Notes under the pieces: model-generated
Told to the model about the DNA's origin: nothing
The model's database searches: none
Seen by the model: the letters and a program-made list of their open reading frames with translations, nothing else
Origin: Lactifluus volemus
Lineage: Eukaryota > Basidiomycota > Agaricomycetes > Russulales > Russulaceae
Direction of reading: 5' to 3'
Length of the DNA: 64,000 nt
NCBI GenBank assembly: GCA_022376515.1
Contig: WTXI01000055.1
Location: forward strand, 62,001 to 126,000
Shown: positions 1,036-64,000 of the stretch, in pieces
How the letters are laid out: every line of letters begins with the position of its first letter
How positions within the stretch are numbered: the stretch's first letter is position 1
Position numbers and translations under genes: made by a program

Positions 1036-3804
1036 AAGCACATATCGACGCGCCAACGCCTCATCCCAGCTTTGATGACGGCGGCCGGCTTGTCAGACCA
1101 ACCAGACCACATGGCCACTGCCCTAAGCCAACGCTTCTTCAACCCGCTACCCTCAATTGTCCCAGAGATCTTCCCGGACGACCCACCCCATGCAGAGCCC
1201 CGCCCACATGCTCCCGTTACCATTACGGAGATCGCAGACGCGCTGGGCCCCACAAGCAACAAGTCAGCCCCAGGCCCGTCAGGGCACAACTACAAACTTG
1301 TTAAGTGGGCTTTCGCTGCATCCCCAGAGCGTTTTCAAGCTCTGTTTGAAGCATGCCTACAGGTTGGACACCACCCGCTACATTGGAAATCAGCCACAAT
1401 TGCCGTCGTTCCCAAACCGGGCAAGGAGAACTACAGTCTCCCGAAATGCTACCGCCCAGTGGCCCTCCTTGAGTGTTTAGGGAAGCTCTTGGAGAAGGTA
1501 GTCGCGAAACGACTCACCCACGATATCACCGCCTTAGGCCTCATTCCCACCACCCAATTTGGGGCACGTCCGTTCTCCTCCACGATCGACGCGGGCCTCT
1601 GCCTCACCCACGACGTAGAGATGGCACACGCTCTGGGAGGGGTGTGCGGCACTCTGTTATTTGACATCCAGGGATTCTTCGACAATGTCAACCATGCAAG
1701 ACTCTCAGCCCTAGTCCGCTCACTCGGCTTCTCCCCGCAAATCTGCAAATGGACGTCGTCCTTTCTCCGGGACAGGACTGTTCGTTTACGGTTTAACAAT
1801 TACTCCTCGGAGGACATCGAGCTGGAGATGGGCACGCCGCAAGGCTCCCCCATCTCCCCTATCTTGGCTATTATCTATGCCTCCCCGCTACTTCACCTGG
1901 CTAGATCTTGGGCTAATGCTACCTTCCTCATGTACATTGACGATGGCAACATCTTCGCCAGAGCACCCACATACCACATCCTGGCTCAGAGACTCAAAGA
2001 CTGCTACACGGCTTGTCACACCTGGTGCCAGATGGCAGGGCTGACCATTGAACCAGAGAAAACGGAGGTTCTCTTTTTCTCCCGCCGCCGCGCCAACCCA
2101 ATCACCCACGGGGATCGCCCCGTCTCAGTGCTACTCCCAGATCGGGCGCCCAACACTTCGTACTCGGTCGCGGCTTCGGATCATGTTCGCTACCTAGGGC
2201 TACACTTCGACCACAAGCTCTCTTGGGACAAACACATCTCTGTAGTTGCTTCTAGGACAAAAAGCTCGCTTAAGGCGCTCCAGCTTCTAGGCAACTCCGT
2301 GAGAGGACTCAACCATGGCAGCTGGCGTCTCGCCTTCAATGCGATTTGCATTCCAGCGCTAACTTACGGTGCCCCCATTTGGTTCAGGGGTCAACAGAAA
2401 CACATCAAGACGCTCCAAACAGTACAAAACGCAGCTGTTGGGATCATCACAGGCGCTTTCAGAAGCACACCCCGAGAACCACTACACCAACTGATAGTCA
2501 TCCCGCCAATCCATATCCGGTTACAGAGACTAGCTACCCAAGCCGCGATACGTTTACTCACCCTTCCAAAGAGCTCCCCAGTCCTCCAAAGACTAGGCCC
2601 ACCTTGGTGCTCGGTGGAGGGCAGCGGCGTCCCGCTTCCTTACCCGATGCCGGCACGATTACCCGACACTTGCATCCGCAGGCTCAGCTCCCACGTCCCA
2701 ACAGAGAGCCGGCTACCACCTTGCCTTGATCACCCCCCCTGGAAAAGGTGTACACCCCCAGCAGACCGTTTTACGATCACTCACAACCCGTGCAAGGGCG
2801 AGGACCGTAAACGCTTGACCAACATGATCTCCAGGGCCCACTACGGCCGGAAGGACCAGATCCTGGTCTACTGCCGTGGCTTAGGGCCCAACCCAGCACA
2901 AACATCCCCTTTGTGGATGGGCACAGCGATCGGTTACAGGAATGGGAGGGAAACAACTTCCCACAACCCCATCCTCGGCCAGAACGCCTCACACAGGGAC
3001 GCAGCGTTCGCGGCACTCGCAGCTGCGGCGGAGCTGGCTAGAGATATGCTTGCCGTCTCCCACTCCCCGTCAGTCATCTTATACACAGCTGACCAACATA
3101 TTATTCCATGGTGCCAGGCCACCATTAGGCACGACAACGCTGCGGCATGCAAAGTGGTGTGTGACACCATTGCCGACATCCTCGACACGTACCCCACAAC
3201 CTCGATAGCTATCCGCTGGGTCCCGGGCACGGCTAGCTTCGCCCCTTTACAGCGCCTCCAGCAAACAGCGATGGAGACCGCAACCAACGCCCAGCCCCCA
3301 GCCCACAACGCCCCTCTCACGATCGCAGCCCTCCGCACCAAGACCAAGCACGACGCCCTCGCGAAATGGGAACAAGTCTGGCTCAGAGACCCCCGCCGCA
3401 ACCCCGCGTACCGGGCCCTACACCACCCACCATCGGGCGATCCCCCAGAGTTCATGACAGGGATTGCCGGTTTTGCTCGACCGGTATTTTGTACTGCTAT
3501 TAGACTCCTTACTGAGCACGCTTTCACAGGGGAATACAACGCCAGACATCGGCCAAGGGCCCCTGACCCTCACGACTGTCTTTGTGGACAGGCGGCCCTT
3601 CAGACCCCGCTCCACGTTATCTGCAACTGCCCCCTCTTCACAGGGGCGCGTGAACGATTCCTCAGACCAGTAGCCCCTAACCTTTCACCCAACATCATAT
3701 TCGGGACCGAAGCGGGCGGCGCAGCCCTCGCGAAATTCATCGAAGAGACACAAGCGTGTGTCCGACCCCGGAGACATGCCGCCTTACCAGAAGACTTTGG
3801 CTGA
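1033..3804 (+). CDS. LINE ORF2 remnant: reverse transcriptase, RNase H-like, zinc knuckle
   Basis: The frame stays open for about 920 codons. Its first codons (to about 1048) come from flanking DNA, and there is no true start codon for the element. The fingers/palm region has the motif 'CYRPVALLECLGKLLEK' (about residues 145-162), an LLFDIQGFFDNVNH block, 'GTPQGSPISP' and the catalytic 'YIDD' near residue 300 in place of the commoner FADD. Residues about 615-760 resemble a LINE RNase H domain, but the usual acidic residues are changed: VYC instead of YTD, DAAFAAL instead of DAE.., and no GNExAD. A CxC..H..C knuckle lies near residue 865 ('CLCGQAALQTPLHVICNC'). The apurinic endonuclease domain is missing by truncation. 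Reverse transcription activity is possible in principle, autonomous movement is not. Confidence 0.9.
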   Translation: MKHISTRQRLIPALMTAAGLSDQPDHMATALSQRFFNPLPSIVPEIFPDDPPHAEPRPHAPVTITEIADALGPTSNKSAPGPSGHNYKLVKWAFAASPERFQALFEACLQVGHHPLHWKSATIAVVPKPGKENYSLPKCYRPVALLECLGKLLEKVVAKRLTHDITALGLIPTTQFGARPFSSTIDAGLCLTHDVEMAHALGGVCGTLLFDIQGFFDNVNHARLSALVRSLGFSPQICKWTSSFLRDRTVRLRFNNYSSEDIELEMGTPQGSPISPILAIIYASPLLHLARSWANATFLMYIDDGNIFARAPTYHILAQRLKDCYTACHTWCQMAGLTIEPEKTEVLFFSRRRANPITHGDRPVSVLLPDRAPNTSYSVAASDHVRYLGLHFDHKLSWDKHISVVASRTKSSLKALQLLGNSVRGLNHGSWRLAFNAICIPALTYGAPIWFRGQQKHIKTLQTVQNAAVGIITGAFRSTPREPLHQLIVIPPIHIRLQRLATQAAIRLLTLPKSSPVLQRLGPPWCSVEGSGVPLPYPMPARLPDTCIRRLSSHVPTESRLPPCLDHPPWKRCTPPADRFTITHNPCKGEDRKRLTNMISRAHYGRKDQILVYCRGLGPNPAQTSPLWMGTAIGYRNGRETTSHNPILGQNASHRDAAFAALAAAAELARDMLAVSHSPSVILYTADQHIIPWCQATIRHDNAAACKVVCDTIADILDTYPTTSIAIRWVPGTASFAPLQRLQQTAMETATNAQPPAHNAPLTIAALRTKTKHDALAKWEQVWLRDPRRNPAYRALHHPPSGDPPEFMTGIAGFARPVFCTAIRLLTEHAFTGEYNARHRPRAPDPHDCLCGQAALQTPLHVICNCPLFTGARERFLRPVAPNLSPNIIFGTEAGGAALAKFIEETQACVRPRRHAALPEDFG
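1036..1048. repeat. LINE target-site duplication, left copy
   Basis: The 13-bp word aagcacatatcga is repeated exactly at 3995-4007, immediately after the poly-A tract. Its first two A residues on the right overlap the poly-A, so the unambiguous length is 11-13 bp. Confidence 0.9.
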
Positions 3805-35791: not shown

Positions 35792-38700
35792 ATGTCGTCA
35801 CCGATATCTAGCATCGATTCCAATATCCTAAGCTCAGTTGTTGAACATGTATTCATGCCCCCAAAGCTTCCTCAAGAGGCTCCCGATGAGGAAGTTGAAC
35901 AAGAGACAAACGCTGCTTTGTCTCTCCTTCTCCTAGAAGCTGCCCACGCTTTCCATCAGTGCCTCCCTGATTCCAAGAAATCCACATGGGATCATATGGT
36001 CAAGATGATCAAGTTGGTTGAGCGGGATGTGCAGGCACTGTCGGATAAAACAGATCTCCAGAGTGCCTTGTCAGATCTGTCTGTCGGAGGTAAGTCCTAT
36101 CATTTCCACGTTATACCTGCTTTTCAATAACTGGTGTTCCAGATGTGTTTGTTAAGCATATCCGGGCACAGAATGCTGCTGTCGTTGTACGCAAGCTTCT
36201 CAATGGTGTTCAATTCGAAATGTTTGAGGTCTTGCCACTCGCAAGTAATGTAATGTCCACAAACGGAAAGCTCCTTTGCTCTTTTCCGGGGCCAGTGGTC
36301 GAAGTATCCACGGAATTTTTCGCGAACGAATGGTTTCTCCAAGAGCTATCCTCCTTTCTCACCCAAATGGATGTCGACGTCTTGGATTCCGCTGCAACCA
36401 CTATCAAGGCAGGGTCCGAAGTCCGCGAAGTCCGCGAAAGTGCCGATCCAAAATATATCTCCGAGTTATTAGTCGGAATCCTCAGGGGCTTCGGCCAGCC
36501 CGTTGATGTAGATCGCATCACGAAACGGATAGGAGACGAGGTGTTGTGGAAGAATGCGTTGAAGCCTTGGCGCAGGTCTGGGCTATGGCTCGTCATCAGG
36601 GTGGCCCTACAGACCTCTGACAATCACGACAACCTATACAAACCATTCATTCTATTTTTTCACGCCTATCTACTCCGCTTCTGCGTACAAAGAGCGTTCC
36701 CGAGCGAATTACTCTTCGAGATGAGGGTCAAGATGGCTCGCCGTCTAGCAAAGCTGGGCTCTGCTGATACCGGCGACGTCTATCAAGCTGTATACGATGC
36801 CGCGACGGAAACGCAGAACCTTCTACAAGATCGGTGGTCAACGTTTCAGAGAAGCAGGTCGATTTCTCCACCATGGCTCCCAGAACAGCTCGATTTCAAC
36901 TCCGATACGGCGATTAGTCTTGATAATTCACGGACATACCTCACGAAGGCGCTTCGTTCGACGTCGGAAAGCTACTCGCGGCCGAAATTTACTCCATCCC
37001 ATCGACCACGTCTCCACAGTATAGTCGACTTCAGCCAATTTGCTGAGGGGAAACTCATAGAGGCCGTTTCGGAAGATCGCCGCACCGCCCTCGCCGATTT
37101 TGAATTGTCTGTTGAGAGACACCTTGATTCTTGGGTTGACGAATCTCGAGTCAACGATGGCGCTCCGGAAGTAATTGCGTCTTGCATCGAACAGTACTTC
37201 ACCTTGGCGCGAGATATATACAATTCCAATCCTGAAGATTATTCAGTCATGATCTTGACTATCATGGATCTTTGGAAGGCATTGGATACATTGATTGTTC
37301 AACGGTGCCCATTATTAGGCTCTTATTCTCCAGAGATTCCCGAAGACTTTCTTCATCCATTACTCCTTCACCGCGCCGGCTCGCTACGACGTGCATCGCT
37401 TGTCGAAGAGTACCTGCGCCGACGGCATAACGAGGCGTCTTGCACGACGTCCATATTCTCAGACAATGCTGTCCAATCGTCATTCGCAGTGCGGTTCTTC
37501 CACCAATCTGAAGAACTACGACGACTCTATTCTGACATCGATCAACACGCTCGGCAAGAGCGGGAGAAAAAGCGTGCTGAACTTCGCGCCCTGAACCAAG
37601 ATCGGCAATCGCTGATGGACGCAGCCTCGCCGATGACTCATTCTTTCTATGTAGACAAGTATGGATATCGAAGCCACCACTATTGGTGTGAAAAATGTCG
37701 CAAAGAGGAACAGGCTAGGAACTTGAGGATCGATGTCCACGAATGGCCCCTGCCCGAGGAAACGATAAAGGCACAGTTAGTGGTGTTCGAGCTTTCTCCG
37801 CCACGTGTGTTTTCTACTTGGCGCGAGATAACTTACAAGATCCTCCGGGATATTGGAATGCCTAATGCGTCCGACAGTACCGTCTATCCCGAGAAAATCT
37901 TAGACGCTTTCTCTGGCTTGAGGTCTTGGGCAAGACGTCACAAATACCACCGCATTACTCTTGGGTCAACTACAAAGTCATTTAAAGACCAATCACACTA
38001 CAGAGCCGTTCAAATTCCTGCAGATGAATCTTCGGTCTTGGTCAATCATGGGCTATCCTTCAAGTTATTCGATCGTACTAACAATGACTGGGCGGCGGGG
38101 CCTTTTCTTGAGTCTAGTGTTGCACCAAACTGTCAGCCTCCTGTCCCCCCATCAGGTCCATACACCGACTTTCATTCCACCGCGTCTGGCACTCACCATA
38201 CGTCGAATGAGGTGATTGCCTCTCAGGCTGACTGTCCAAAGGAGCTCAGTCTTCACGAATATATCGCATTTTCCACCTTGCGTAGTGGCCCACGCTTGCA
38301 ATGGCTCAACATATTGAGGGAGCTAGCCTCGCCCTCACTATCGTTTCGTCGAGAGGAGGTACACTCATTGATTACTCAAGCAGCCTGGCAACTTGGACCA
38401 TTGACGGATGGTGTCCGGGAGTGGCACACTGACCTCGGCATTCTCGAATTTGGGCGGGTTCTCCTACATGAACTGGAAGCCCTCCTCGAGAGAGTACGAG
38501 CTAATTGGCTCGAGGAGGTTACCGTCAGGACCATTGGTATGTTATAGACCACTCTTTATCGTCACTAGCTCAACTATCTTCAGCTCTAGTGACTAGTCGT
38601 CTTCTCTCTTCCGCAGAAGATCCAGATATTTGCGCAAGAGCATGTTCATTGCTGCGGAACGTTCGGACGGTAACACATGATTGGGTTGGCCAGCTGTGCT

Positions 38701-41700
38701 CCAAGCTAGACTCGACACAAGACGAAACATCACGTGACAACTTGCGTCACCGATTGTGTTCACTGGCGGCGACATGTGTTTCCACTTTTGATGTTCGCCT
38801 CGAGCATATCCCAAATGTCCTTTCTACTGACGAAGATTTCGCTATTGCTGTGCGGTGCGCGGTGATTGTCCATGACAATACTCCGTCTATTCTTCCAGAT
38901 AGCGTCTCTCTCTATCTCTCCCGGCTCCTCAATAGACATCACCGACTACTTCACTTTCTTGAACGTTTTTTCCTAGATGAAATGCGTTCATATCCATCAG
39001 GGGTTAATGACGCACTCGCGCGCTTGTGGTCAGGTTATCGTCGGCAACGCTCCTCGCCTTGGCATGTGCTCCCTGCACCCAATTCCCGGTGGATCTTCTG
39101 CACTACGGAAGGAGGACAGGAAGTCCACTATAACGTACTAACTGGCCAACTTCTGGTCGGCGGACAACCGTTAGGAATCCTTCCTAAAGAGATAACAGAA
39201 CATTCCACGTACGCAGGCATTCTTGGAACGGTGGGTGTTACGTTCGTCTCAACTTGCGTCTACATACCCGTTTTCATACTTCCGTTGCAGAGAATTCTTG
39301 ATGTAGTTCCAGCTGACATCCCTGGGATGGACTTCATGACCAGGTCTACCGTCTTCGGATATCAGGTAAAGACCCTATTTTTACCATTGGACGACGCTAA
39401 GAGGAACACCGAAGATCTTTTTCTCAGGGCGCGACGGTGATGTCACCATACAAGCACGACAACCGGGGGACTCCGAGCCCCTGCAGTTTGTTCCCCAGAA
39501 AGTACTCAACGGTGACTTCCCGAGGCCATTTGTCGGCGATCGTGTCCACTGGCTCAACCTATGCACAAGAGAGCTCGAGTTCCGTCCAGCTGAATCTCCA
39601 TGGACGCCTGAACCTTCCAATTGGCGGCTCCACGTTCCTTTGGATCCTAGCCAGTCCCAGGCCGTACTTCGCCAAATCTCCGGAGATAACAGCGGGCCCA
39701 AATTCCTCATCGATATTCGTTCAGCTACTTTTCTCATGATATCTGGCCTACTTTCTGCGTTGGAAATCCCGGAACAGGTTATCATCGTGCGCACTCCCCA
39801 GACAGTGGAGGCTTCTCTGCCGAGATTACGTCTCTCATTTTTCGTCAATGACAAGTCAGAGATAGAGTGCCGAAGCATACCTGGCTATGTTATCGACAAA
39901 GTCCAGTCGTCCGGCACTATGTTTGGTCTCATAAACCAACTCGTCTTGTGCACTAGCAGTGGCCCTTCCGAGCTACCACGACGAGTCATCATCCCACAAG
40001 GAGAAGTGTCATTCACGGTGAATGGAGGCTTTTCAGAAGTTTCCATACGGACGGGGACCAATCACCTTGTCCACTGGCACGAATATACGATCGATACCGA
40101 TTTGGGACGGCTGTCGGGGAATGTAAGCCTGCGAAGCAAGCTATACCAATGCTATTTACATGCCGTGACGAGTCACTGCCTACCCGACCCCTTGCTTGGT
40201 CAGACTGGGACAGAGGAATCGATTTCTATGTTGCGAAGCGCAGCTTTCAGGTCATTTCAAAGACTCGACAACTACGAGGCAAAGGTTTTGAATTCGATTA
40301 GCGGATTGACTCCACGCAGAGAATACTATCCACCACACTTGACATCAATGGCAACGGTGGAATGGAACGACCTTCCCATTCTCTCGCAACACCATGACTT
40401 TCACCCGGCTGTATGCTCCATTGTTGCCCACGCGCGTGCACTGGAAACTCTCTACGATCGCCCGGTCACCTTTGGCATTTCGGAACGGGACCAGCAATTA
40501 CTGAACCGCGCAGCCACTCGCAACTGGATCTACTATCCATCCGATTTGCAAAGCTCAGGGAAGCCGCTTCCATCAGGTCCAGGCGATGTTATCTACGAGT
40601 CGAGGGACGTCGGCAATGGGAGAACCGAAGGTTATGCCGCCTATCAGATTTCTTGGGCTGTATGGCATGAAAAACCTTCTCTTTCTCGTAAATGGCTTCG
40701 ACTATGGGACGCAATACAGCCATGGGACACATTAGGCCCCGCTCGTGAGGGCATTTCCCTGCGGTATAGCCGATACTGGCTCGAGTTCAATGTCGCTCAA
40801 GACTGGGTAGAGATATACAATCTCTGTCGGAAGAAATGTCACAGCGTTCAGAACGTGAAAATTACTTTGGCCTTCAGTCTCGCCGCGGCTAGTTTCAGCC
40901 GGCCTGAATATAGGGATATCCTTCCTCTTTTCTTGATCTTTGCAACGGATGCCCGTTTCCAAGGTCTAAGACTCCCAGACGAGCCTCGGTACACGCTTTC
41001 AATTGGCACTTCTCCAAAATACGGACACTTGATAACATTAATATCCGGATCTGCCCATCCCATTAAAGAGACCCCTGCGTACACAACGGACGTGGAGGCT
41101 GACTATTTCTTATGGAAGCGGCGAGAACAAGAATATAGGAGGGTTGTTGACGAAAAGGCATCAGCGGCTGCTCGTACGATAGAGGGACAGTGGCCAAATA
41201 AACGGATTCCTTATCTTCCTGAAGAGTGGTTCGACGCATCAAGTTGCAAAGAATGCGTCGGGGAATACCTCCAATCGGTTTCCAGGAATTCGGAATTGAA
41301 GGTCCACATCGAAGGTCTACAGAGCATCCTGGACCACTACAGAGCTGGTGTTACTGGTGTCACTGAGCCACCTCATGTCTTTTCCCCCAGTTCAACGCCA
41401 ATCCTTCTGAAGCCGTTTTTCGCCTACTTCGAGGCTTGATGATATCCCACTCTCCCATCACAACGCAGCCCCCTTACAACCCCGATCGTGCCATATCTTC
41501 CACCATGACGATAGTGGCTAGAAGCGTTCCGCCCTCCACTAGAGAAGATGGCCTCCAGAGCCTGATTCAAGAGTTTCAAAGTTCTCAGCAATCATTACTG
41601 CGGCTCTATGGAGATGACTTGACCAAGAGTTACAGCGAGCTTCTGCAGAAAGAGGTCTTTTCGACAGAACGTGCCATCCCTTCCTACGGGATTCTGTGTA

Positions 41701-44700
41701 ACCACCGCGATGTGTGTCGCGAAAGGAAAGACGCAATATTTTCGAATCTCTTAACGGCTCTCAAACCGGACCAAAAGGTGGACAAGATTTTTGGTATTGC
41801 GGGTCTCTGGCCTCGAATAACACCGCGAACGATTCTGCGCCAATTGTCGTGGGATCATGCTCACACACTGCCCGAGTCATGGAAGGACATCATCGTTGGC
41901 TATGCAGTAGCTTTCCTCAAATACCAGCAATCCCAGCGTCTGCTTGAGCTTGCGTCAAGACGCCAGGATGATGCGTTTTTCCGGGACGCTGAAACCATTT
42001 GCGAGGATGTCGCAGCGGCATGTTCCCATGACTGGTTGTTGATACAGGTCGGTGTGCCGTTCTGCTTAACATGCCGGAGCTAACAGGTACTGTAAGTAGA
42101 TCGACGCGAACTTTTTGGCTCGCCCACTACAATTGGCCGTCGCGCGTGAAATGATCTCCCCTACCTCCGGTCGCAGCACGGCACTTCAGCTCAACATGGG
42201 AGAAGGAAAATCTTCAGTAATTGTACCTCTGGTCTTAGCAACGCTGGCCAACGGGTCTTTCCTAGCCAGAGTCGTGACTCTGAAGCCGTTGTCAAATCAA
42301 ATGTTCGAGCTGCTTATCAGCCGGCTTTCTGATCTCGCTGGGAGACCGATTTTTTACGTCCCTTTCTCCCGCAATTTGAAAATGGACGCTTCCACTGTTC
42401 AAAGGATCAGCGCTCTTTATGAGCGGTGTGTCGCCGATCGCGGTGCTCTCGTGATCCAGCCGGAACATATCCTTTCACAGAACTCATGTCCATCGACACT
42501 CTCCTGGAATCGCATTCCATTTCACGGGAGATCAAGAGCCTGCAGGATTGGCTTGCCAAAGTATCACGTGACGTACTGGATGAGAGCGATGAGATACTTC
42601 ATGTGCGATATCAGTTGGTCTATACCGCAGGAGAGCAAATGCCGGTTGAAGATCACCCAACCGTTGGTCCACCACTCAGCAGGTATTCAGCCGGTTACAA
42701 GCTCATGCAAGACAGTTACATACTCATTTCCCCCGGATGTTCGAATTCGATGAGTCCCAGGGAGGTTTCCCTACGATGCGAGTCCTGGATCACATGGTCT
42801 CTCTCGTGATATCTTCGCTCATCGTCGACGACGCGCTGAGGGCGAATTGTCTTCTCTTCGGCTGGCCACTCTCTCACCGCAAGTCCGAGAGGCAACCCGC
42901 TTGTTCATAGTCCAGAGGGATGTACCGAGAGGAATTCAAGAAACCATTCGGGAGTACTGTGCTGAACGGCCTTGTGGAACGGAATTCTCTTACTCCGTGG
43001 GCTCCTTGTCGATGGGGAGGGAATTCTTGGTTACGTCCTGAAGGAACGCCGTTGGAGAGTGGACTATGGTCTCGATCCGAGTAGAACATTGTTGGCTGTT
43101 CCGTACCGCGCAAAGGTATGACCAGTCTATATTCCGGGCCGTGTTCATTTACTGAGGGTAAATGTAGGACGTACCGAGCTTGAGAGCGGAGTTTGGTCAC
43201 CCAGATGTCGCCATCGCGCTAACCTGTCTCAGTCATTATTACGGCGGCTTGAAAAAGGAACAAGTATTGGTGTGCTTTGAGCTTCTGGCCAAGCTCGATA
43301 ATCCCGAGATGGAATACGAGCACTGGGTGGGGGATGGAACAGATATCCCTAAAGCGCTACGCCAGCTCAATGGCGTGAACATGACGGACGACACTCAAGT
43401 CAAGGACTATCTCGTTCCATTGTTCTCGCGGAATAAAAGAGTGATAGATTTCTATTTATCTCAAGTCGTCTTCCCGCGAGCAGCCAAAGAATTTCAATTC
43501 AAGCTTTCCTCGTCGGCCTGGGATCTCGTTGAGGACAAGAAGAATATCACGACTGGATTCAGTGGCACCAATGACAATCGTTTCCTCTTACCGACGTCAA
43601 TAACTCAAGAAGATCCCGTCTCCCAACTGAGCACGAATGCGCTGGTTTTGCAGTATCTCCTTCAGCCGGAAAATGGCCACTACGAGTGTACGGAAGGTCA
43701 AAATGGCGAACGCGAGTCCGCAGAGGCATTCTTGAAACGTCTCATCAGGCAATCTCCTGAAATACGAGTTCTGCTAGACGTGGAGCACAGATGCTGGAGC
43801 TACAGAACGAGGACTTGGTGCGACGTTGGCTATCTCTTCGACCTGACGTTTCAGCGGCTGTCTTTTTCGACGACTCGGATCACCTCACAGTTCTCACTCA
43901 AGATGGGTCCATTGAACCATTCAATTCGTCTCCTTTCAATCGCCAGCTAGAGAGATGTATAGTTTACCTCGATGATGCGCATACTCGGGGGACCGATTTG
44001 AAGCTCCCTCGAGAAACCCGGGCCGCGGTCACTCTTGGGCCAAAGGTCACCAAGGACCGGCTTCTACAAGGCGAGTGTATATGACTTTATGTACAGGCCT
44101 GAGACTGACAAAACTTCAGGATGTATGCGGATGCGGCAACTAGGGAAGGGACAATCGGTGATGTTCTTTGCGCCTGGGGAGGTCGACCGTCGCATCCGCA
44201 GTCTTATTCCAAGCGACCGAGAGAATGGACTTCCCACCCAAGTCTTAGACATCCTTCGCTGGGCCATGCACGAGACTTGTGACGACATCCGTCACCACCT
44301 TCCCCACTGGGCTCAGCAAGGCTTGGACCACCACCATCGCTTTTCTGCATACGAACAGTATGGGTCGAATGGTGACTTGAACGTCTTGAAGGATGCTTGG
44401 TTACAGCCCGAGTCGAGGACCCTGGAACAAATGTACGACCCTATTTCGACTCACAAGGCACCGGTGCCGTTTGGAAATAACGCGGATCCCTGCCATCAGG
44501 GAGCGGATGAAACTTCTTGGAGTAACGAGTTTGGTCGATGTTAGAATGGCAGAGGAGCAAGAACGGGAGGTGAACCATGAGGTCGAGAGGGAGCGTCAAG
44601 TGGAGCGCCCTCCGAAGGTTATACCAGCAAAGCACATCATCCGTGACGATATCCGCAACTTCGTGAACACCGGAAAACTTCCTAGCGTCCGGACGTACAT

Positions 44701-53614: not shown

Positions 53615-55298
53615 ATGCCGACCACACCTTCCGTCAGAAAGCGAAAACGTGGCTTCTCAGACGCAAGCGAGTCTGATTCAATTTCTATCGAGCTCTCAAG
53701 TTTGTCTGACGCTCAGATAGGCCCGGTGCTTGGTGTGTATGATTAGTACTAGTAAACCTGACTTGATGCTCTAACTTGTGCTTGCCACACAGCAAGCTTC
53801 CCTTCTCTTACACCCCCCAAAAATATCGCGTATAACGTCTTTTTGAGGGAAGAGGATGAGGGGAAGGAGTTTGTAAAGCGTCCAAGCACTCTTGCCGGAG
53901 AAACGGAAACCATCGAGTTCTCTGGCTCAGTCAATGAAGGGAGTGACGGATTAGGGAGCAGGTTCGGCTCTCTATTGGCTTCTTCAGAGTGACCACGCCA
54001 ACTCGTTCGGAGTGCAGATACTTCCTCGCCCTACATCAACCGGGGTCATCGAAGCTGATCGTGCAGCCGACTCCGGTGTATCTGGTCTCTCGTGAGGTCA
54101 AGGCTCTCAAGAACTTCAAGCCTATCGAGTCAGTCATTTCTGAGGGTTTTCATGCCCGCAACGTGCTAGGCGAGGCGTTTGGGACGAAGAAGGCCAAGGC
54201 GGCCATACGCGCGCACGAACGCAACAAGGTGGATGTGAGCGCGATGGAATCTGTTGCGAGCGTGTTGCAGGACCGAATAGATGAAGGAACGGAAAATCTC
54301 CCAACACAAGGTGTGTCTCGACTTTTTTCTTTTTGCCAAAGGAAAATAGCTCACTCTCAACGTGGCCAGAGAAAATGGAGGAATCTGCAAACGCTGCACG
54401 GCTCATCCCAGCATATAACGCCGATGCTGAGAGACCAGAAGACATTTATCCCTTGCATCACATCATTCCGGAACCTGAATGGGCTACCCTAGATGGCCTG
54501 CTTCACAAGCTCAAAAATGCGACGGATGACTACTCAAGGGCACGCCTTTTGCCCAACGCACGCAGCGATTGGTTGCGACAGAATTTAATGCTCGCGTATT
54601 CCGTACCAAAACCCAAATCCAAAGTCGCGTTCGTCTCTTTTGACCCCCAATTATCCTTTCCTTACTCACGGGCTGAGATAGCAAGATGTGATTTATGCCT
54701 CGGTAATGTTCACATTTCGCGGTATTGCAGGGAGAAACGTTCCGGACAGGACCGTGCTGCTGGAGCGTCTGGCGCCTGCCCCGGAGATTGTCGTTGATGG
54801 ACTTCTTTCACGATTTACCGAGACACCTCGAGGATCCGCAAAGTATGTCTGGTGTCAATCTCCGTTCTACTGTAGCCCATGTGAGCTGTCAGGCCGCAGA
54901 TGACGAGCGAGAATGAAACCAGCCTTCTTACGCATTTATTGGCCCTGTGCTTGAAGGTCGATGATTATGCGACAGATACGTCACTGATCGCGACGGATCT
55001 CAAAATGTCACCCCCAAGGTACGTCCTTCCTCAAATGATTCAGAGTCGTTGACTGAAGTTTGTTCCCGAAAGGGTGAATACCCTGTTCAAATCGCTCGGT
55101 ATGACGAAGTTCCACGTAGCATTTCCATGACAGAGTCACTGATCTTTTATTACAACTTCCTTAGGATGCACTATTGGCAAACTCACTCCTCAAGAACTAA
55201 AGCGCCTTGGTCTCCCAGATAGCGTGGGCCAGGAGAAGCGCGCGATCCTGAGAGTACCACTTACTTTCCCAAAACCCAAGCAGAAAAAACGGACATGA
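53615..55298 (+). CDS. RPA49: RNA polymerase I subunit RPA49
   Basis: Nucleolar subunit that, with RPA34.5, forms the TFIIF-like part of Pol I and helps initiation and elongation of rRNA. Start at 53615 (MPTTPSVRKRKRGFSDAS). The N-terminal dimerisation part has 'SFPSLTPPKNIAYNVFLRE', YFLALHQPGSSKLIVQPTPVY and 'VLGEAFGTKKAKAAIRAHER'. The middle has PTQ..ARLIPAYN and 'YPLHHIIPEPEWATLDGLL'. The tandem winged-helix C-terminus shows DWLRQNLMLAYS, 'APEIVVDGLLSRFTE', KVDDYATDTSLIATDL, and ends 'TPQELKRLGLPDS..FPKPKQKKRT' with a basic tail at 55298. Several introns are needed. The segment around 54300-54430 is ambiguous. Confidence 0.87.
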
Positions 55299-55939
55299 TC
55301 CACCAGTTTTAGGGTAGTTAAGCCCAGTAGCTTCTGTCTTACCCTATGATGGAAATGCTTGTATTTGATATCGTCTTTGATAGCACCACATTGGACAACG
55401 ATCCAGAGATGCACGAGGGCGGCCTTATAGTGTAGAGTGAGGAAAGGCTCTTATTTGTTGCACCCTCACACTCGCGGGCCCATTGAGTTGGGGCCGAACT
55501 TGAAACCCCTCATGTGGCACTTCCGCCTATTTCCCTAGTACGCCGTGCACAACAACTTGAAGCTGGGGCGTTCCGTGAGGCACATTCGCGGCCAAACCCC
55601 GCCAGTTCGCTCAGCCTCAGGTTTGCTGGAAAATCCGCCCGACGCCCCTTCCACCTGGTGATGACCTTCGACTTGACCGTTCGCCAGCCACTGATTCGAA
55701 TGACAGCCGGAGAGTTGGTCTCGGATCAATCAATGGCTTGGTCTTCGTCCGAGCTCCAACATCTGGAGTTGATACAGCCAGTCCAGTCATCCTCAAGGCG
55801 CCCTAAATTAAGTTGCTGGGCGCTGCTACGACAAGCTCGTGCCCCAGAACTCCACACCCTGGGCTGACAGTGAGCGTGCCCCACACTTCCTACTTACATA
55901 CTTGCAACACACCGGGTTTTAAGAAACAGAGCTTTCTGG
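55299..55939. other. Intergenic; right end belongs to the G-alpha repeat unit
   Basis: The last about 120 bp (from about 55820, ctcgtgccccagaactccac..) recur upstream of the other two G-alpha-like genes, at about 58330 and 60825. The rest shows no gene. Confidence 0.55.
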
Positions 55940-57503
55940 ATGGCCTCAAAAACTTTGGCTTCCTGGATACGACCTTCAAGTTGGGCCGAAAGACGTGAGA
56001 AAAAGCGTGCAGAAAAACGTGCAAAAGCCCGATCAGACATGATTGACCTTATGATCGAAGACGAAGCGAGGATTTTCAAGCGACAGGTAAAGCTTCTGTT
56101 GTTAGGTTCGTCTTAGTCACCGTCTAGTGCAATCTATGGCATCGTACAGGCGCAGCTTGGACAAAACATGCTAACTACCAAACTATCAGGTAACAATGCC
56201 TCCGAAGGATTCGCTCTAGTCAAGCACATGAAATTCATCCATGGTGACAATGGCTCCGAAGAGCTGGCAGAATTTCGGCGAATTATTTGGAAGAACCTCC
56301 TCGAGAAATCGCGCAAAATCGTCCAAGCTCTACGAGACTTAGGTCTGGAACCGGTGAACCATGCAAATAAGGTGCGTTACTGTTTTGATACTCGCCATGG
56401 ACGGCTATTAAATTAATAGGCGAACTGCGAGCACATTATGAACCACCGAACGGATGTCAATAATCCCGAGTTCTTGTTCCTTCCGGAGTTTGTACAAGCT
56501 GTCCAGGATCTGTGGGCCGACGAGATCATTTCCGTGTTGTTGGAGCGTTCATTCGAACTCTCTCGGGCTTTGGGTGATGATACCTCGTAGTGAGTCCCTT
56601 CATATCTGTTTTCCACAGTCGTGATCTTGGTTCAGCTCTAGCGGAGTGACACTCAGCTGGTTTATTTATGCGTCACCTCGATATAGGCTGATCGCTCGCT
56701 CTTTTGCAGCCTCTTCGACCGGGCGCTGTGGATCACTATGAGAGGATATATCCCATCGAGTGAGGATATTCTCCGTGCAGCTGAAGAGCCTGTGGTGGGC
56801 ATCAGGGAGACAAGCTTCGTCATGGGCGAGCTAACGATTCAATTGTGCGACGCTAGTGGCCAACGGAGTGAGCGGAGAAAATGGATACACCAATTTGAAG
56901 GAATTACAAGCATTATCTTTTATGCCTCTCTCGCAGACTACGATCAGGAGGTATTATGCGTCATCCTTCCCTTTTCCAAAGGCACATGACCCACGGGTTG
57001 TAGGCGCTAGCCCACGCTCTTGTCCTTTTCGAATCGGTGGTCAACTCGCGCTGGTTCTTGCGGACGTCTGTCATACTATTTTTGACAGGGATCGACAAGT
57101 TCAAGGCCAAACTTGCCAAAGTACATCACATGTTCCAGACATCGTCTCGCTTTGGTTAAGATAGGCTTCATTCACAGGTTCCTTTAGATAGATACTTTCC
57201 GGAGTATACGGGCGGTTCGGACGTCAATAAGGGGGCCAAGTATATCCTTTGGCGATTCATGCAAGCCAATAGAGCGCGGCTAAACGTGTATCCCCAGTGA
57301 CTCAGCTTCTCTCATCTGTATCACACATGGCTGACCTTAGTTCATCGCAGTATCACGCAGACCTCCGACTCGGGAATATTAGACTGATGTTTAACACAGT
57401 GAAGGAGACAATACTCCAGAATGCACTCCGAGAGTCTGGTATTTTGCGTAAGCCCAGTTCTCCCTTTTTCTTTGGCAAGATTCGCTGGCTGAAGTTTTAT
57501 TAA
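55940..57503 (+). CDS. G-alpha-like protein A, P-loop substituted
   Basis: Start at 55940 ([22 protein letters not shown]..). No glycine at position 2, so no N-myristoylation site. After 'VKLLLL' the P-loop position reads GNNASEGFA, where canonical G-alpha has GAGESGKST. Then come '[10 protein letters not shown]', '[15 protein letters not shown]' and a helical domain ('[20 protein letters not shown]'). Switch I ('[15 protein letters not shown]') lacks the catalytic Arg and Mg-binding Thr. Switch II is the best kept part: '[18 protein letters not shown]', still with Gln. NKxD is TGID. The tail has '[18 protein letters not shown]' and '[20 protein letters not shown]'. One indel near 57375 disturbs the TCAT-equivalent segment. 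Probably membrane-associated signalling family; nucleotide binding is doubtful. Confidence 0.8.
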
Positions 57504-58429
57504 GGGGACTAGGTGGCTTGACTTGGTTAAGAGATCGGAGCATGGTGGTTTTGAGGACATCCATCTCAGCGGACTCCTGTGTATGCCTCAGGGTGAGATG
57601 CAGGCAACCACTGCGCGGCGGACGTAGTACTACATTTAATGAGCATATTAAGTATGTTCTGGTGCACAGTAGATCATATTTGCGCTCTCGAACACCTTCA
57701 AGGCCATCTACAGGCAGTCTGGGTTGTGATTTTTTGACGCGGGCACAATAGCGATCTGTACGTTCTCGCTCTCACTAGTAAGCGAGAACTTGAATATGAG
57801 ATTTAAGCCGCATATAAGTGGCCTGCAACATACTACCTCAGGCTTGCACTCATGACTCAGAAGACTCAGACATCCGATCACGTAGGCTATGATATTGGGG
57901 AAAGGCTCTTCAAGTTAGGTGTCATCCCCCATGGCGGCACTGTCGTTGAGTCCGCGAACGAACGCCATACACTGGCGCCGAGCTGGTCATGCGGACTTGG
58001 AAAAGCCCTTCAAGGGTCGTGAGGCGCCGCATCGCCCCCGGGCTTTGCCGGTCGCTGCACACCACTGAAGACTTTCGACACTCCAACCACTGACACCCGA
58101 GAATTAGTGTGTTCTTGCATCCATCAACGGGCTATTTCAAGACGTCTAGGAAGATGTGATTTGTCGCGTATTTAGGTTACGTCTAGCATTCAAGTTCGTT
58201 CAGTTCCTCACTTGGCAACAATCACATCCCGATCCCCGAGTTGACATGTTGACATATTCAGTGTGCTAGGCGCCCGTAAATCCCAAAGTGCTCCATATCA
58301 TGATATCCGAGCGCTTCAAGTTGCTATAAGACGCTCATGCCCCGCTGATAATAAGCGTAGCTCGGTCTCCCTTCCAGTGATACTTACAAATTCCCAACAC
58401 ACCGCGTATCAGTCATCAAAGCTCACTGG
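57504..58429. other. Spacer between G-alpha-like units A and B
   Basis: About 925 bp. Its second half resembles 60370-60950. No gene was recognised. Confidence 0.55.
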
Positions 58430-59934
58430 ATGAAGACTTTGGCTTCCTGGATAAGAAGTTGGACCGAAAGACGGGCAAAAAGGCGTGCACAAGCTCGATC
58501 TGACAAGATTGACCGTCGGATCGGAGAAGAACGGATGACTCTGCATTTACAGCCACGGGCGGAAGTCCTGTTCATAGGTTCGTCTCATTCTGCAGCCTAG
58601 GTCATCTCACAGGCGAAACTAGGGCACACCCGCTGACCGTCAATCTATCAGGTACTGATACCTCCGAAGTATCCGCCTTAATCAAGCACATAAAATTTGC
58701 CCATGGGAATGGTTATAGCTCCAAAGAGTTGGCCGACTTTCGGCAGATTATTTGGAAGAACCTCCTTGAGAAATCGCGTGGTGTTGTCCAGGCCCTACGA
58801 ACCTTCGACCTTGAACCCACGAATCATGCAAATAAGGTGCGCCCTCTTTATGTACGTTCTGTTCCTCTGAGTCTGAGTTCTCTTGACAGGTGAATTGCGA
58901 GTACATTATGAGCCATCGAACGGACACCGATGACCTGAATTCTCATTCCTTCCGGAGTTTATACACGCTGTCCAGGAACTGTGGGCCGACGAGATCATTT
59001 CTGTGTTGTTGGAGCATTCATCTGAACTCTCTATGGATAATGATGCTGCATAGTGAGTCATGAGGTTCTGCTCTGCGCGAACAACACTTGTCTCCACTGA
59101 AGTTTATGCGCCGTCTTGATATATGCTGATTGACCACTCGCTTGTAGCTTCTTTGTGCAGGCCCAGCGAATCTCCGCGAGAGAATATGTCCCATCGACGG
59201 AGGATATCTTTCGTATTACTGAGAAGCCCGGGGTGGGCGTGGCCGAGATAGACGACTCGCTATTGCTTCGATTCTTGTGGGTTAACACACGATGGAACAC
59301 CTCAGGCTGGAAGAAGTGGATGCATCATTTTGAGGGCGTTATCACCATCGTGTTCTGCGCCTCTCTCTCAGACTACGATCAGGAAGTCAATGATATTGAC
59401 AACCACGTATGTGTTATCGTTCTCATTTCCAAGAGTACACTGGTATGACCCACGAGTTCCAGACGCTGCTGACCGACTCTCTTCTCCTTTTCGAATCGGT
59501 AGTCAACTCGGGCTGGTTCAAGTACTTGCGGACATCTATCATACTATTCTTGACGGGCTAGACAGTTTCAATGCCAAACTCGACAAAGTATATCACAAGC
59601 TCCAGTAACTCACGTCTAGCTTTTATTTAAGATAATTTCTTTCTCAGGTGCCATTGGATAAATACTTTCCGGATTATACGGGTGGTGCGGACGCCGATAC
59701 CGAGTCCGAGTTTATCCGTTCTCGATTCCTCCAACTCAATCGAGCGCGATTACGGCTGTACTCCTAGTGACCCAGCTTCTCTCATCCTTTATCGCACGTA
59801 ACTGACCCTTACGTGATCACAGCGTTTCACGGGCCTCCGACATGGTGAATGTCGATCAAAGCACCCGAGTCATTATGTCGGTGGTAAACGATTCAATAAT
59901 GGATAATTATATTAGAGAGGCTTGCCTTGTGTAG
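58430..59934 (+). CDS. G-alpha-like protein B, P-loop and switch II lost
   Basis: Start at 58430 ([19 protein letters not shown]..). The P-loop site reads GTDTSEVSA. Then 'IKHIKFAHGNGYSSKELADF', '[19 protein letters not shown]' and the helical domain. Switch I is 'IFRITEKPGVGVAEID'. Switch II has become 'LWVNTRWNTSGWKKWMHHFEG', with no DxxGQ. '[15 protein letters not shown]' and LTGLD (NKxD lost) follow. The C-terminal exon reads SDMVNVDQSTRVIM and ends 'MDNYIREACLV', stop at 59934. Two one-base losses in runs (near 58932 in a C run, near 59558 in a G run) break the frame. If those are sequencing errors the protein is complete at roughly 350 residues; otherwise it is a pseudogene. Confidence 0.75.
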
Positions 59935-60104
59935 AGCCGAAATTGGAGCTCCGAGTTGGGAACGAGGGGACGACGCGACACGCGAGAAAGTATACTGGAT
60001 GCCCTTACTGTACATGGAGTTCATTTGAAGTATTTAACTAGTCTATTCCGTAAATAATGTAGCTCACTACTGTAATTACTTATCCTGTATCACACAGGGA
60101 CCCC

Positions 60105-60235
60105 GGGGAATATTAGACTGGTTTTAACTGGGATAATACTACTCCAGAATGTACTCCGAGAGTCTGGTACTTTGCGTAAGCCCAATTCACCCATTTTCTT
60201 TGGAGAGATTCGCTGGCTGCCAAGGGGGCTACGTA
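60105..60235 (+). pseudogene. Orphan G-alpha C-terminal exon remnant
   Basis: Closely similar to 57375-57490, the last exon of copy A ('QN.LRESGTLRKPN'), but with a deletion in the helix and no gene body in front. It lies behind copy B, which has its own divergent last exon, so it is a leftover from the duplication. Confidence 0.8.
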
Positions 60236-60952
60236 TTTGTTTTTTGAGGACATTTGCACATGAGTCAGGATCTGTATCATATGTTCATATTCAGCTACCT
60301 CTCTCCCCATCCCTCTTCCCCATTAATCAACAAACCTATCTCAGCGGAATCTGTCTATGCCTCAGAGTGTGACTGGACGTAAGTACGGTGATTCGGACAC
60401 CTTCGAGTCCGCGGGCTACCAGGCACCGCCGTTCGCGCATCGCCACTTCCCGACCGAAACCCACCGCTTCCGAGTCGTCTCTGTCTGACATGACATACTG
60501 TACTGTACACTCGCTTGGCCTTCAGGGTGGGTTCGGCTAAGGTTCGCGGGTCGCTGGACAACACGGAGCGGACGCCCATCCCACGGGTCAAGACCGACAG
60601 TACTGACGGCCTGAGAGTTTAGTGTGTTCTTCCATGAACGGACTATTTCAAGTTTACGCACCGTCTCGGAAGATGTGATTTGTCGCGTACTTACTCTAAG
60701 AATCGAGTTCGTTCGGTTCCCCACCTGGTAACATATCGAGTTGACATGTTGACGTCATGATACTGCCAGTGTTCAGCGTGCCAGGCACCCGTAACTCCCA
60801 AGTATCCGAGCGCTTGCTACGATACGCTCATGTCCCAGAACTCTACGCTTGGCCGACAGTGATCGGTATCATGATAAGCGTACCTCGCTCTTCCTTCTAG
60901 TGATACTTACAGACTTGTAACACACCGAGTATCAAACATCAAAGCTCACTGG
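60236..60952. other. Spacer between G-alpha-like units B and C
   Basis: About 715 bp that largely parallels 57760-58429. No gene was recognised. Confidence 0.55.
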
Positions 60953-62560
60953 ATGGAGACTTTGGCTTCCTGGATACGACTCAGATCTTCAAGTTGGTCT
61001 GAAAGACATGCAAAATGGCGTGAAAAAAAACGTGCAAAAGCTCGATCTGACGTGATTGACCTTCAGATAAAAGAAGAACAGAAGACTCAGAAGTTGCAGC
61101 CACGCAAGGCCGAAGTCCTGTTCATAGGTTCGTCTCATTTTGCAGCCTAGGTCATCTTACAGGCGAAACTAGGGCATACCCGCTGACCGTCAATCTATCA
61201 GGTATTAATACCTCCGAAGTATCCGCCTTAGTCAAGCGCATAAAATTTGTCCATGGGAATGGTTATAGCTCCGAAGAGTTGGCCAACTTTCGGCAGATTA
61301 TTTGGAAGAACCTCCTTGAGAAATCGCGTGGTGTTGTCCATGCCCTACGAACCTTCGACCTTGAACCCACGAATCATGCAAACGAAGTGCGCCGTCTTAT
61401 ATGTTCGTTTTGTCCCTCTGAGTCTGGTTCTCTTGACAGGCGAATTGCGAGTACATCATGAACCATCGAACGGATATTGATGATCCTGAGTTCTCATTCC
61501 TCCCGGAGTTCATACACGCTATCCAGGAGCTGTGGGCCGACGAGATCATTTCTGTGTTGTTGGAGCATTCATCTGAACTCTCTATGGACACTGATACCAC
61601 GTAGTGAGTTCTCCTTATTTGTTTGTTTATTCATGAGGTTCTGCTCTACGCGAGTGACACTGGTCTCCACTGAAGTCTATGCGTCCTCTTGATATATGCT
61701 GATTGGCCACTCGCTTGTAGCTTCATTGTGCATGCCCGGCGAATCTCCGCAAGAGAATATGTCCCATCGAGTCAGGATATTCTTCGTATGACTGAGAAGC
61801 CTGGGCTATGCGTGACCGAGATAGACAACCCTATATTGAGTCGATTATTGTGGGTTAATACTCGATGGAACACCTGGAAGAAGTGGATGCATCATTTTGA
61901 GGGCGTTGTCAGCATCGTCTTCTGCGCCTCTCTCTCAGACTACGATCAGGAAGTCGATGACATCGACGACCACGTATGTATTATCATCATCAATCTCTTT
62001 TCCCAAGAGTACACAGGCATGACCCACGAGTTCTAGACGCTGCTGGCCGACTCACTTCTTCTTTTCGAATCGATCGTCAACTCGGGCTGGTTCTTGCAGT
62101 CGTCTATCATACTACTTTTGACAGAGTTGGACACGTTCACGGCCAAACTCGACAATGTATATCGCAAGCTCCAGATAACTCTTGTCTGGCTTTTATTTAA
62201 GTTTCTTTCTCAGGTGCCCTTGGATAATTACTTTCCGGATTATGCGGGTGGGGCGGACGCCATTAATGGGTCCGAGTTCGTCCTTTCTCGATTCTGCCAA
62301 CTCAATCAAGGGCCCATAAAACTGTACCCCTAGTAACCCAGCTTCTCCCATCCTGTATCGTACGCAGCTGACCCCTTCGTGGTCACAACAGCATTTCACA
62401 CGCCTCTGACCTGGTGAATGTCAGTGATGGCACCCGGTTCATTATGTCGGCGCTAAGTGACTCAGTTCTCGATCATCACCTCAGAGAGGCCGGCCTTTTG
62501 GGTAAGCCCAATTCAGCTTTCCTGTACAAGATTCGCTGGCTGAAGTTTTCCCGAGACTGA
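60953..62560 (+). CDS. G-alpha-like protein C, intact frame, P-loop and switch II lost
   Basis: The clearest copy. Start at 60953 (METLASWIRLRSSSW..), with a basic N-terminal helix and no Gly2. The P-loop site reads GINTSEVSA at the same length as GAGESGKST and is split by the intron at the usual place. 'VKRIKFVHGNGYSSEELANF', 'DDPEFSFLPEFIHAIQELWAD' and the helical domain follow. The switch I region is 'ILRMTEKPGLCVTEID'; switch II is 'LWVNTRWNTWKKWMHHFEG', two residues shorter, without the Gln. NKxD is TELD. 'VPLDNYFPDYAGGADAINGS' then 'SDLVNVSDGTRFIMSALSDS' and HHLREAGLL end the G-alpha homology; the frame runs on to a stop at 62560. I found no frame break. A GTP-independent relative is the likeliest reading. 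Confidence 0.82.
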
Positions 62561-63747
62561 GCGTAATGCAAATTTGAGTAGGCGGCTTCAAGTTGACTTG
62601 GTTTGGAGAACAGAGTATCGGTTTTCAAGTTGGGGGACACTGAAACATTCGTTTCACATCAGTCAGGTCTACCTTCTCAGATCTGTGGGTATATTCAGCT
62701 ACCTGTCCCCCATTCCTCCCAATCCTTCGCATCAGCGACCCATCTCGGCAGTGTAAGGATGACCTTCAAGTTATCGGTATCCTTATAACCACGTCACTGT
62801 TTTTCGTCCTCCTTTCCCTCACCTTGTTTCACCCTTGCTCGTCCAATTTCGCCATGGCCCTCGACATTCCGCAAAGGCCCTGGATCGCCGGCCACACCCC
62901 TCGTTCTGTCGCGCGCCAAGATGTTACCTCACCTACGACGCCTTTACGCCTTGGGAATAGTCCCACTCTCCGCGGCCTGTCCCTTTCGTCCGATTTTTGT
63001 CTGCTGGGCCTTTTGGTTTCCATTTTGGTTTCGGATCGTGCTGTAATTTCATTTCATGGTGTCGTCCCAGTCCCGGCTACGTCATGGCGCCCGGGCGCCT
63101 AGTCTTGTAACCTTTCTTTTCTCTCTTTCTCTTGAAGAGAGCGCCAGCATCCCGTGAGATCTTCCGAGGGGTACATGCGTTCCCTAATGTTCTTTGTGCT
63201 ACTCCTTACTTTACGGTTCTACGCTCTGACTTCAGCCTCATTCTCGTATGTTCGTCCTTGCTTTCGCGTTCAGAATGAGATGCAGATAACGACTGTGCGG
63301 CTGTAAGTGTGTATGGATAATAGATCATTTTTGTACCTTAAAAGCCACCTGCTGGCATGTGGACTCATCCGAGGTGCGACACCATGGATCCGACTTGGAG
63401 CACGCAGGGCAATCTATAGCGCAAGCTATAGCGAGAACATGATACCGTACGTAATCAGTCCCCAGTCACCATTCCTGTATTCCCGCATGATTAAATCTAG
63501 TAGGACCAAAAAGATAAACGGGAAAGAAACTGGAGGAAGGCATGCTGGACCTTCAGTTGCCTGGAAGTTCTGAACGTCTACCCATTTCCGTGGTCTGGAG
63601 CGGCAGTTCCATACAGTCACTATGCTCAAATTTTCATATATATATATAACTTACTAGGAAGCGGGCTATGTAGTTAGTGGTTACAGTAAGGGCCAGACGA
63701 TGCGCGCCACTGGCACCTGCCGTTCCGGCCCCTCCCGGGCCAAAGCT
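62561..63747. other. No gene recognised
   Basis: About 1.2 kb. Pyrimidine-rich sequence around 62780-62830 and 63100-63140, and a short AT microsatellite at about 63637-63649. No convincing coding sequence. Confidence 0.5.
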
Positions 63748-64000
63748 ATGAATCCTTCTCTGTTCTCCGATGCCGCGAAGGGGTTGGACAGAACGCTCTT
63801 ACCTGCAGATGAGGCGAAGGAGCTCGACGCAAAGATCGCCGCATTTCTTCCCCTGTTCGGAAAGGATCTGATAGAGTGGTAGAAGGTTGGAGTGGCTTGT
63901 CCGTGTGCGTCTTGTCTCCTGTCCTGTAGATTCCCGGAGAGCTGAAGAGAACGAATTCAACGCCGAGGATGTCTTTTCTCTCTTTCTCCCCTATCATGAC
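63748..64000 (+). pseudogene. UTP10/HEATR1-like N-terminal part, broken or incompletely spliced, cut by the window edge
   Basis: Reads NPSLFSDAAKGLDRTLL, 'ELDAKIAAFLPLFGKDLIEW' and, after a gap or intron, 'NEFNAEDVFSLFLPYHD' at the window end. This matches my memory of the N-terminal region of the U3 snoRNP HEAT-repeat protein UTP10, where 'IEWLVRR.. HEFNVDDVL..FLPYH' is typical. A TAG directly after IEW and the shortened LLKP segment suggest decay or an indel. The expected first about 80 residues are not visible upstream. It may be a fragment, or the true gene may continue to the right. Confidence 0.45.

Follow-up and report, generated by a model that had tools for sequence, protein, structure and literature searches.

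The window analysed here, a 64,000-nucleotide stretch of the Lactifluus volemus (Russulaceae) genome (62.4 Mb) at C501:62001-126000, on a contig of 211729 bases, carries tandem genes for proteins resembling the alpha subunits of heterotrimeric G proteins (G-alpha), in which the phosphate-binding loop (P-loop) has been replaced. Heterotrimeric G-alpha proteins are defined by their GTP cycle, and canonical G-alpha requires the residues that have been lost here to hold GDP/GTP and Mg. We found that these genes belong to a single clade of Russulaceae proteins which is G-alpha by descent and, judged by the defining motifs, fails at G1-G4. Since the residues holding GDP/GTP and Mg have been lost, the proteins should be nucleotide-free, and we put at about 0.5 the probability that they are pseudo-G-alpha subunits which would act by occupancy, on G-beta-gamma and/or on receptors.

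Four copies, A to D, were modelled with a spliced aligner written for this analysis and run on the genome sequence. A sequence-only reading of the window had described three tandem G-alpha-like genes at 55940..62560; A, B and C do occupy that span, and the array has a fourth copy, D, just beyond the window end. The features of the array are the following (window coordinates, except for D):

55940..57387, + strand: copy A, G-alpha-like, 7 exons, 346 amino acids (aa) as read
56105..56215, + strand: loop of copy A, GNNASEGFA, first codon interrupted by intron 56106-56189
57370..57371, + strand: frame break of copy A, last exon, in the spliced model
58430..59934, + strand: copy B, G-alpha-like, with two one-base frame breaks
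58577..58677, + strand: loop of copy B, GTDTSEVSA, first codon interrupted by intron 58578-58651
58932..58933, + strand: frame break 1 of copy B, exon 3, in the spliced model
59559..59560, + strand: frame break 2 of copy B, exon 5, in the spliced model
60953..62560, + strand: copy C, intact, G-alpha-like, 7 exons, 394 aa
61127..61227, + strand: loop of copy C, GINTSEVSA, first codon interrupted by intron 61128-61201
C501, about 127.05-128.7 kb (positions 1152-2771 of locus L009, C501:125900-135800): copy D, loop GINTSKVSA

Six introns are common to the copies, and their positions match those of the intact paralogue L012 (contig C618); one of them falls inside the P-loop. The introns have GT-AG borders in all four copies, and C is open over its 394 codons. 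The comparison with the Pfam G-alpha profile, proposed in the sequence-only reading, gave matches to PF00503 of 252 bits for A and 224 bits for C (cut-off 48.8), and the protein identity to L012 is 58% and 44%, respectively. The ancestral stop has been lost in A as well as in C, which in the latter gives a C-terminal extension; in A the frame break of the last exon removes the alpha-5 tail, which an alternative donor after 57285 would retain, the gene end then being at 57503. Copy D is open through six exons, and its C-terminal tail is changed. A public protein of L. volemus, P0001 (332 aa), corresponds to copy B minus skipped pieces, both frame breaks being bridged by odd introns. A detached second A-like gene end was observed between B and C (60106..60234, + strand) and is perhaps the leftover of an earlier duplication. 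A search of the genome with the DNA of C revealed no further allelic or dispersed copies of the array outside C501, and protein and family searches of the same genome returned, beyond the array, L012 and otherwise only more distantly related G-alpha genes. A further G-alpha group of this genome, L015-L024, is divergent and has loops such as GQSESGKST and GQAESGKST and many introns in the rough models; two pairs of its loci, L017/L018 and L020/L021, resemble allelic duplicates.

The spliced models confirm the loop replacements that had been read from the letters, namely GNNASEGFA (A), GTDTSEVSA (B) and GINTSEVSA (C), to which D adds GINTSKVSA, against GSGESGKST in L012. Within the array the length of the loop and the intron inside it are kept with respect to L012, as had been proposed; this does not extend to the whole clade, the Russula loops aligning two residues longer. 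A hidden exon restoring the loop was considered and rejected: the contiguous motif GxxxxGK(S/T) was absent from the six frames of window positions 55700-62999 and of L009 1000-2999, in a scan to which an intron-split motif is invisible and in which the control, L012, yielded GSGESGKS. Thus, the restoring exon (GxGESGKS) that the sequence-only reading had named as one way in which it could be wrong was not found as a contiguous genomic motif across A-D.

The loss is not limited to the P-loop, the only site to which attention had been drawn; G2, G3, G4 and the N-terminal myristoylation site have gone as well. The motifs were counted over 17 P-loop-less rows of the clade, with denominators that vary with the rows aligned at each site. 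The Walker Lys and the inner loop Gly are kept in 0/17 rows, and the position of the Lys is occupied by A, V, G or I; the replacements vary from genus to genus, the pattern to be expected once a site is released. The roles of the G boxes in holding nucleotide and Mg are also described in the sections of PMC8584482 drawn on here, which give the G1 consensus of G-alpha as G(A/T/Q/P)G(E/D)SGK(S/T), a pattern that the clade rows do not match. In switch I (G2) the catalytic Arg is kept in none of 15 rows and the Mg-binding Thr in 1 of the 8 aligned; in G3 (DxxGQ) the Asp survives in 1/15 and the Gln in 12/16, copy A retaining DASGQ; in G4 (NKxD) the Asn and the Lys are each at 0/13 and the Asp at 8/13. 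The MG start for myristoylation was found in a single clade row out of 17, the partial metagenome protein P0029, vs 29/32 of the other rows. In place of the MGxC start the clade has a basic N-terminal stretch, predicted helical in P0002, and 13/17 rows have an S-W motif among their first 16 residues. In a conservation count based on a list of contact residues, the nucleotide contacts were kept at 0.29 vs 0.58 for other invariant sites; two of the 14 canonical-labelled rows (Gloeopeniophorella and R. earlei) were excluded from this count, their own motifs being changed. Canonical Russulales G-alpha proteins, such as L012 and P0031 of L. subvellereus, have PF00503 and the intron places in common with the array; on the other hand, both retain GSGESGKST, the switch I Arg, DVGGQ, NKID, TQAT and MGNC, of which the array and the clade keep little.

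The relatives were collected by searches with C as a query (13 matches) and with a profile (30 matches); of the 30 proteins from these searches, seven (P0010-P0013, P0023, P0027 and P0030) were omitted from the tree. The canonical relatives of L012 were taken from the best 120 of 7983 matches, with 22 of the 119 new ones entered in the tree; among the matches listed, many are labelled GPA3-like by their sources. Homologues with the same loss, which the sequence-only reading had advised looking for, were found in 12 rows from seven other named species, i.e., Lactifluus subvellereus, Russula ochroleuca, R. compacta, R. brevipes, R. aff. rugulosa, R. earlei and Lactarius tabidus, and in one metagenome protein. 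P0002, P0004, P0005, P0007 and P0014-P0017 are near-complete; P0003, P0018, P0022, P0024 and P0029 are partial or oddly annotated, with odd inserts at the loop in P0003 and P0029.

In a tree of 49 rows the 17 P-loop-less rows, which come from Lactifluus, Russula and Lactarius, fall into one clade (support 100/100), each genus together, nested among intact Russulales G-alpha genes such as L012. Long-branch attraction caused by the shared loss of motifs was rejected, as the clade persists at 100/99 after masking of the N-terminus and the motifs, though fast rows remain. A separate Lactarius origin was rejected too, since forcing the L. tabidus pair with the canonical genes of Lactarius gave p = 6.6e-7 in the approximately unbiased test (p-AU). 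The simplest reading of the tree would be a single loss before the split of Lactarius, Lactifluus and Russula, in agreement with the earlier proposal that the loss is older than the tandem duplication. The protein P0062 of Gloeopeniophorella convolvens (loop GSDESGKST, switch I changed) is weakly placed as sister to the clade at 83/91, and at 87/85 with masking; the alternative to this placement is not rejected (p-AU 0.106), and P0062 possibly represents an early stage of the loss. Partly broken G boxes were also observed outside the clade, in Mycena (P0008, P0020, P0021), Psilocybe (P0025, P0028), Coprinopsis (P0026) and Tulasnella (P0009), suggesting that losses of this kind happen repeatedly in Agaricomycetes. 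These partly degenerate proteins, e.g., Coprinopsis with GTDRSGMST, show a less complete loss than the Russulaceae clade and are apparently separate events.

Against this loss, the fold appears to have been maintained. All 13 public clade members scanned match PF00503, and the proteins combine a Ras-like and a helical domain. Nucleotide-contact residues are lost with the fold kept, as expected of a nucleotide-independent atypical G-alpha that is XLG-like in working. The switch II Lys-Trp patch, which we take to be the G-beta contact site of known structures, is kept in 16/16 clade rows as part of a wider patch, Lys-Trp-x-His-x-Phe-Glu. Moreover, the alpha-5 end stays near NALKESGIL in one L. 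subvellereus row and in both R. ochroleuca rows. The kept Lys-Trp patch and, in some members, the C-terminal tail would fit a role as beta-gamma sink or receptor decoy.

The sequence of events that we propose is as follows. A duplicate of a canonical Russulales G-alpha gene, represented today by L012, would have lost the residues holding GTP, Mg and the guanine base, a basic stretch at the N-terminus taking the place of the MGxC lipidation start. The resulting pseudo-G-alpha would not cycle between GDP and GTP; its retained switch II patch may hold G-beta-gamma and/or, in some members, its C-terminal helix may dock on a receptor, and canonical G-alpha signalling would be dampened or redirected, as plant XLGs act without nucleotide. 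The L. volemus array would be in birth-and-death turnover, with C intact, D open through six exons, and A and B failing. More tentatively, the clade may constitute a nucleotide-independent signalling arm peculiar to Russulaceae, in which a G-alpha paralogue without G boxes or lipid anchor, re-anchored by its basic S-W helix, would have been retained throughout the family as a standing competitor titrating G-beta-gamma or receptors, lineage-specific tandem amplification tuning the dose; this would be a fungal counterpart of the XLGs in which the pocket is lost more completely.

PseudoGTPases have the GTPase fold with lost G boxes, as in the clade, and no heterotrimeric G-alpha clade described as a pseudoGTPase was found in searches of the open-licence PubMed Central (PMC) literature. 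Plant XLGs are far longer than the Russulaceae proteins. The near-complete members of the clade are of about 350-394 aa and of fungal gene origin, while XLGs arose in plants, and the two are compared by description only. According to the sections of PMC8584482 used, plant XLGs are atypical G-alpha that depend on nucleotide weakly or not at all and bind G-beta-gamma independently of it, and some atypical G-alpha subunits are without N-terminal membrane-tethering residues. The clade would share this weak or absent dependence. The same sections describe atypical G-alpha of Dictyostelium and Naegleria with deviating catalytic motifs, whose nucleotide dependence is suggested to be reduced or lost; these belong to other lineages and are likened to the clade by description only. 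As atypical G-alpha of this sort occur in plants, Dictyostelium and Naegleria, the Russulaceae clade is not a new kind of protein. The belief that a P-loop-less G-alpha clade had not been described in basidiomycetes was not contradicted, no report of such a fungal clade being found among the papers listed in searches of the open-licence PMC literature (titles and abstract starts). If our reading is true, the G-alpha scaffold can be of use to fungi even with no nucleotide, a case that has been made for plant XLGs; the clade would offer a natural set of putative nucleotide-free G-alpha for studying how the fold and the beta-gamma contact are held together and, for fungi that are difficult to manipulate, a candidate dosage regulator of G-protein signalling.

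Several observations weigh against the reading of these proteins as working pseudo-G-alpha. Copy B has two frame breaks and A has one; P0001 skips those of B, so that some models of the relatives may also hide breaks, and among the 13 and 30 matches B is the only copy with a public model, none being present for A, C and D. Changes in the alpha-5 tail were observed in B, C and D and in several Russula rows. An AlphaFold2 model of P0004, predicted from clade rows alone, reached a predicted local distance difference test score (pLDDT) of 69 and superposed poorly. Among the profile-search matches a single species of Lactarius has the family, which is either patchy or under-sampled by the word-based search. 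Finally, exons diverge about as much as introns among the three closest copies, the identity of exons 1-6 vs introns being 92.8 vs 92.1% for C-D, 87.5 vs 89.6% for B-C and 86.9 vs 90.1% for B-D; conservation of exons over introns, tried as a proof that B, C and D are constrained, came out the opposite way. In the pair A-C, the exons are 74.3% and the introns 63.8% identical.

The frame breaks, the similar divergence of exons and introns, the ancestral stop lost in A and C and the missing public models all favour the explanation that the array consists of decaying pseudogenes, uninformative on function, in which open reading frames (ORFs) persist only through recent duplication. We consider this rather unlikely. 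A codon model was fitted to A, B, C, D and L012 over 373 columns with at least 3 of the 5 sequences, excluding the two codons of B that are broken, the part of A downstream of its break and the D tail. The ratio of nonsynonymous to synonymous substitution rates (dN/dS, omega) was 0.64 in the array, vs 0.13 on the branch that connects it to L012 and takes in the array stem. The dN/dS comparison across the array, recommended in the sequence-only reading, gave a divided answer: omega = 1 was rejected for the whole array (twice the log-likelihood difference, 14.3) and for B, C and D with inner branches (6.6), but not for the B, C and D tips by themselves (1.6) nor for A alone (0.5), which again points to pseudogenes and counts against our reading. 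No in-frame nonsense codon is present in the four models, where a neutral simulation expects 3.8, 3.0, 1.8 and 1.5, and the indels of exons 1-6 are multiples of three in 8/8 cases for A-C, 1/1 for C-D, 5/7 for B-C and 4/6 for B-D. Copy C, open over its whole length with GT-AG splice sites, and the long open models with the same losses in relatives of three genera also argue against a mere pseudogene array. Constraint on the array is at best weak; C remains whole, and other copies are being lost. The earlier idea that the loss was tolerated through copying is not supported for all copies as working genes, since A and B are frame-broken and omega on the recent branches is indistinguishable from 1. 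Gene conversion of A by L012 was considered for a stretch of 50 codons with 94% protein identity, and was rejected because the nucleotide identity there is 77%, indicating that synonymous sites have diverged.

It is unlikely, in our opinion, that the family, though coding and useful, now works outside heterotrimeric signalling, with the helical domain and the new basic N-terminus doing other work (e.g., binding to membranes or nucleic acids) and the fold serving only as a scaffold. This would agree with the S-W motif of the N-terminus, with the alpha-5 tail eroded in several rows, and with the helical domain, whose conservation has dropped least of all regions (pairwise identity of 0.55 within the clade, vs 0.65 for canonical rows to L012, these being two somewhat different measures). 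The invariant switch II Lys-Trp, a G-beta contact patch in known structures, and the alpha-5 ends that stay near NALKESGIL in one L. subvellereus row and both R. ochroleuca rows argue against it.

That nucleotide is still bound, through an altered pocket, is very improbable: plant XLGs, atypical as well, bind GTP very weakly according to the sections of PMC8584482 used, and the G3 Gln and the G4 Asp are often kept, but the Walker Lys, inner loop Gly, switch I Arg and the Asn and Lys of NKxD are missing from every row aligned, and their replacements vary by genus in the manner of released sites. An annotation or assembly artefact, with loops due to wrong splicing or sequencing errors, is most unlikely despite the public model of B that skips two frame breaks and the odd loop inserts of P0003 and P0029, because loops and introns were taken straight from the genome sequence, the introns of all four copies having GT-AG borders, the six frames hold no contiguous Walker motif, and the Lys is also missing from the public models of the seven other named species.

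Two further features flank the array within the window:

53947..54797, + strand: pieces of an RNA polymerase I A49-like gene (PF06870), the upstream neighbour
63740..64000, + strand: part of a 5' gene fragment, with a second copy at L009 3334-3753, downstream of D

The presence of the latter fragment, which we take to be UTP10-like, downstream of both C and D suggests that a duplication carried flanking sequence; three pieces taken from L009 gave no Pfam match. Elsewhere in the window, a long ORF at 1024-3804 (+ strand) contains a reverse transcriptase domain (PF00078) and is probably a retroelement, and several long ORFs at 36094-42750 (+ strand), two of them matching DUF6606 and DUF3638, probably belong to a single large intron-containing gene.

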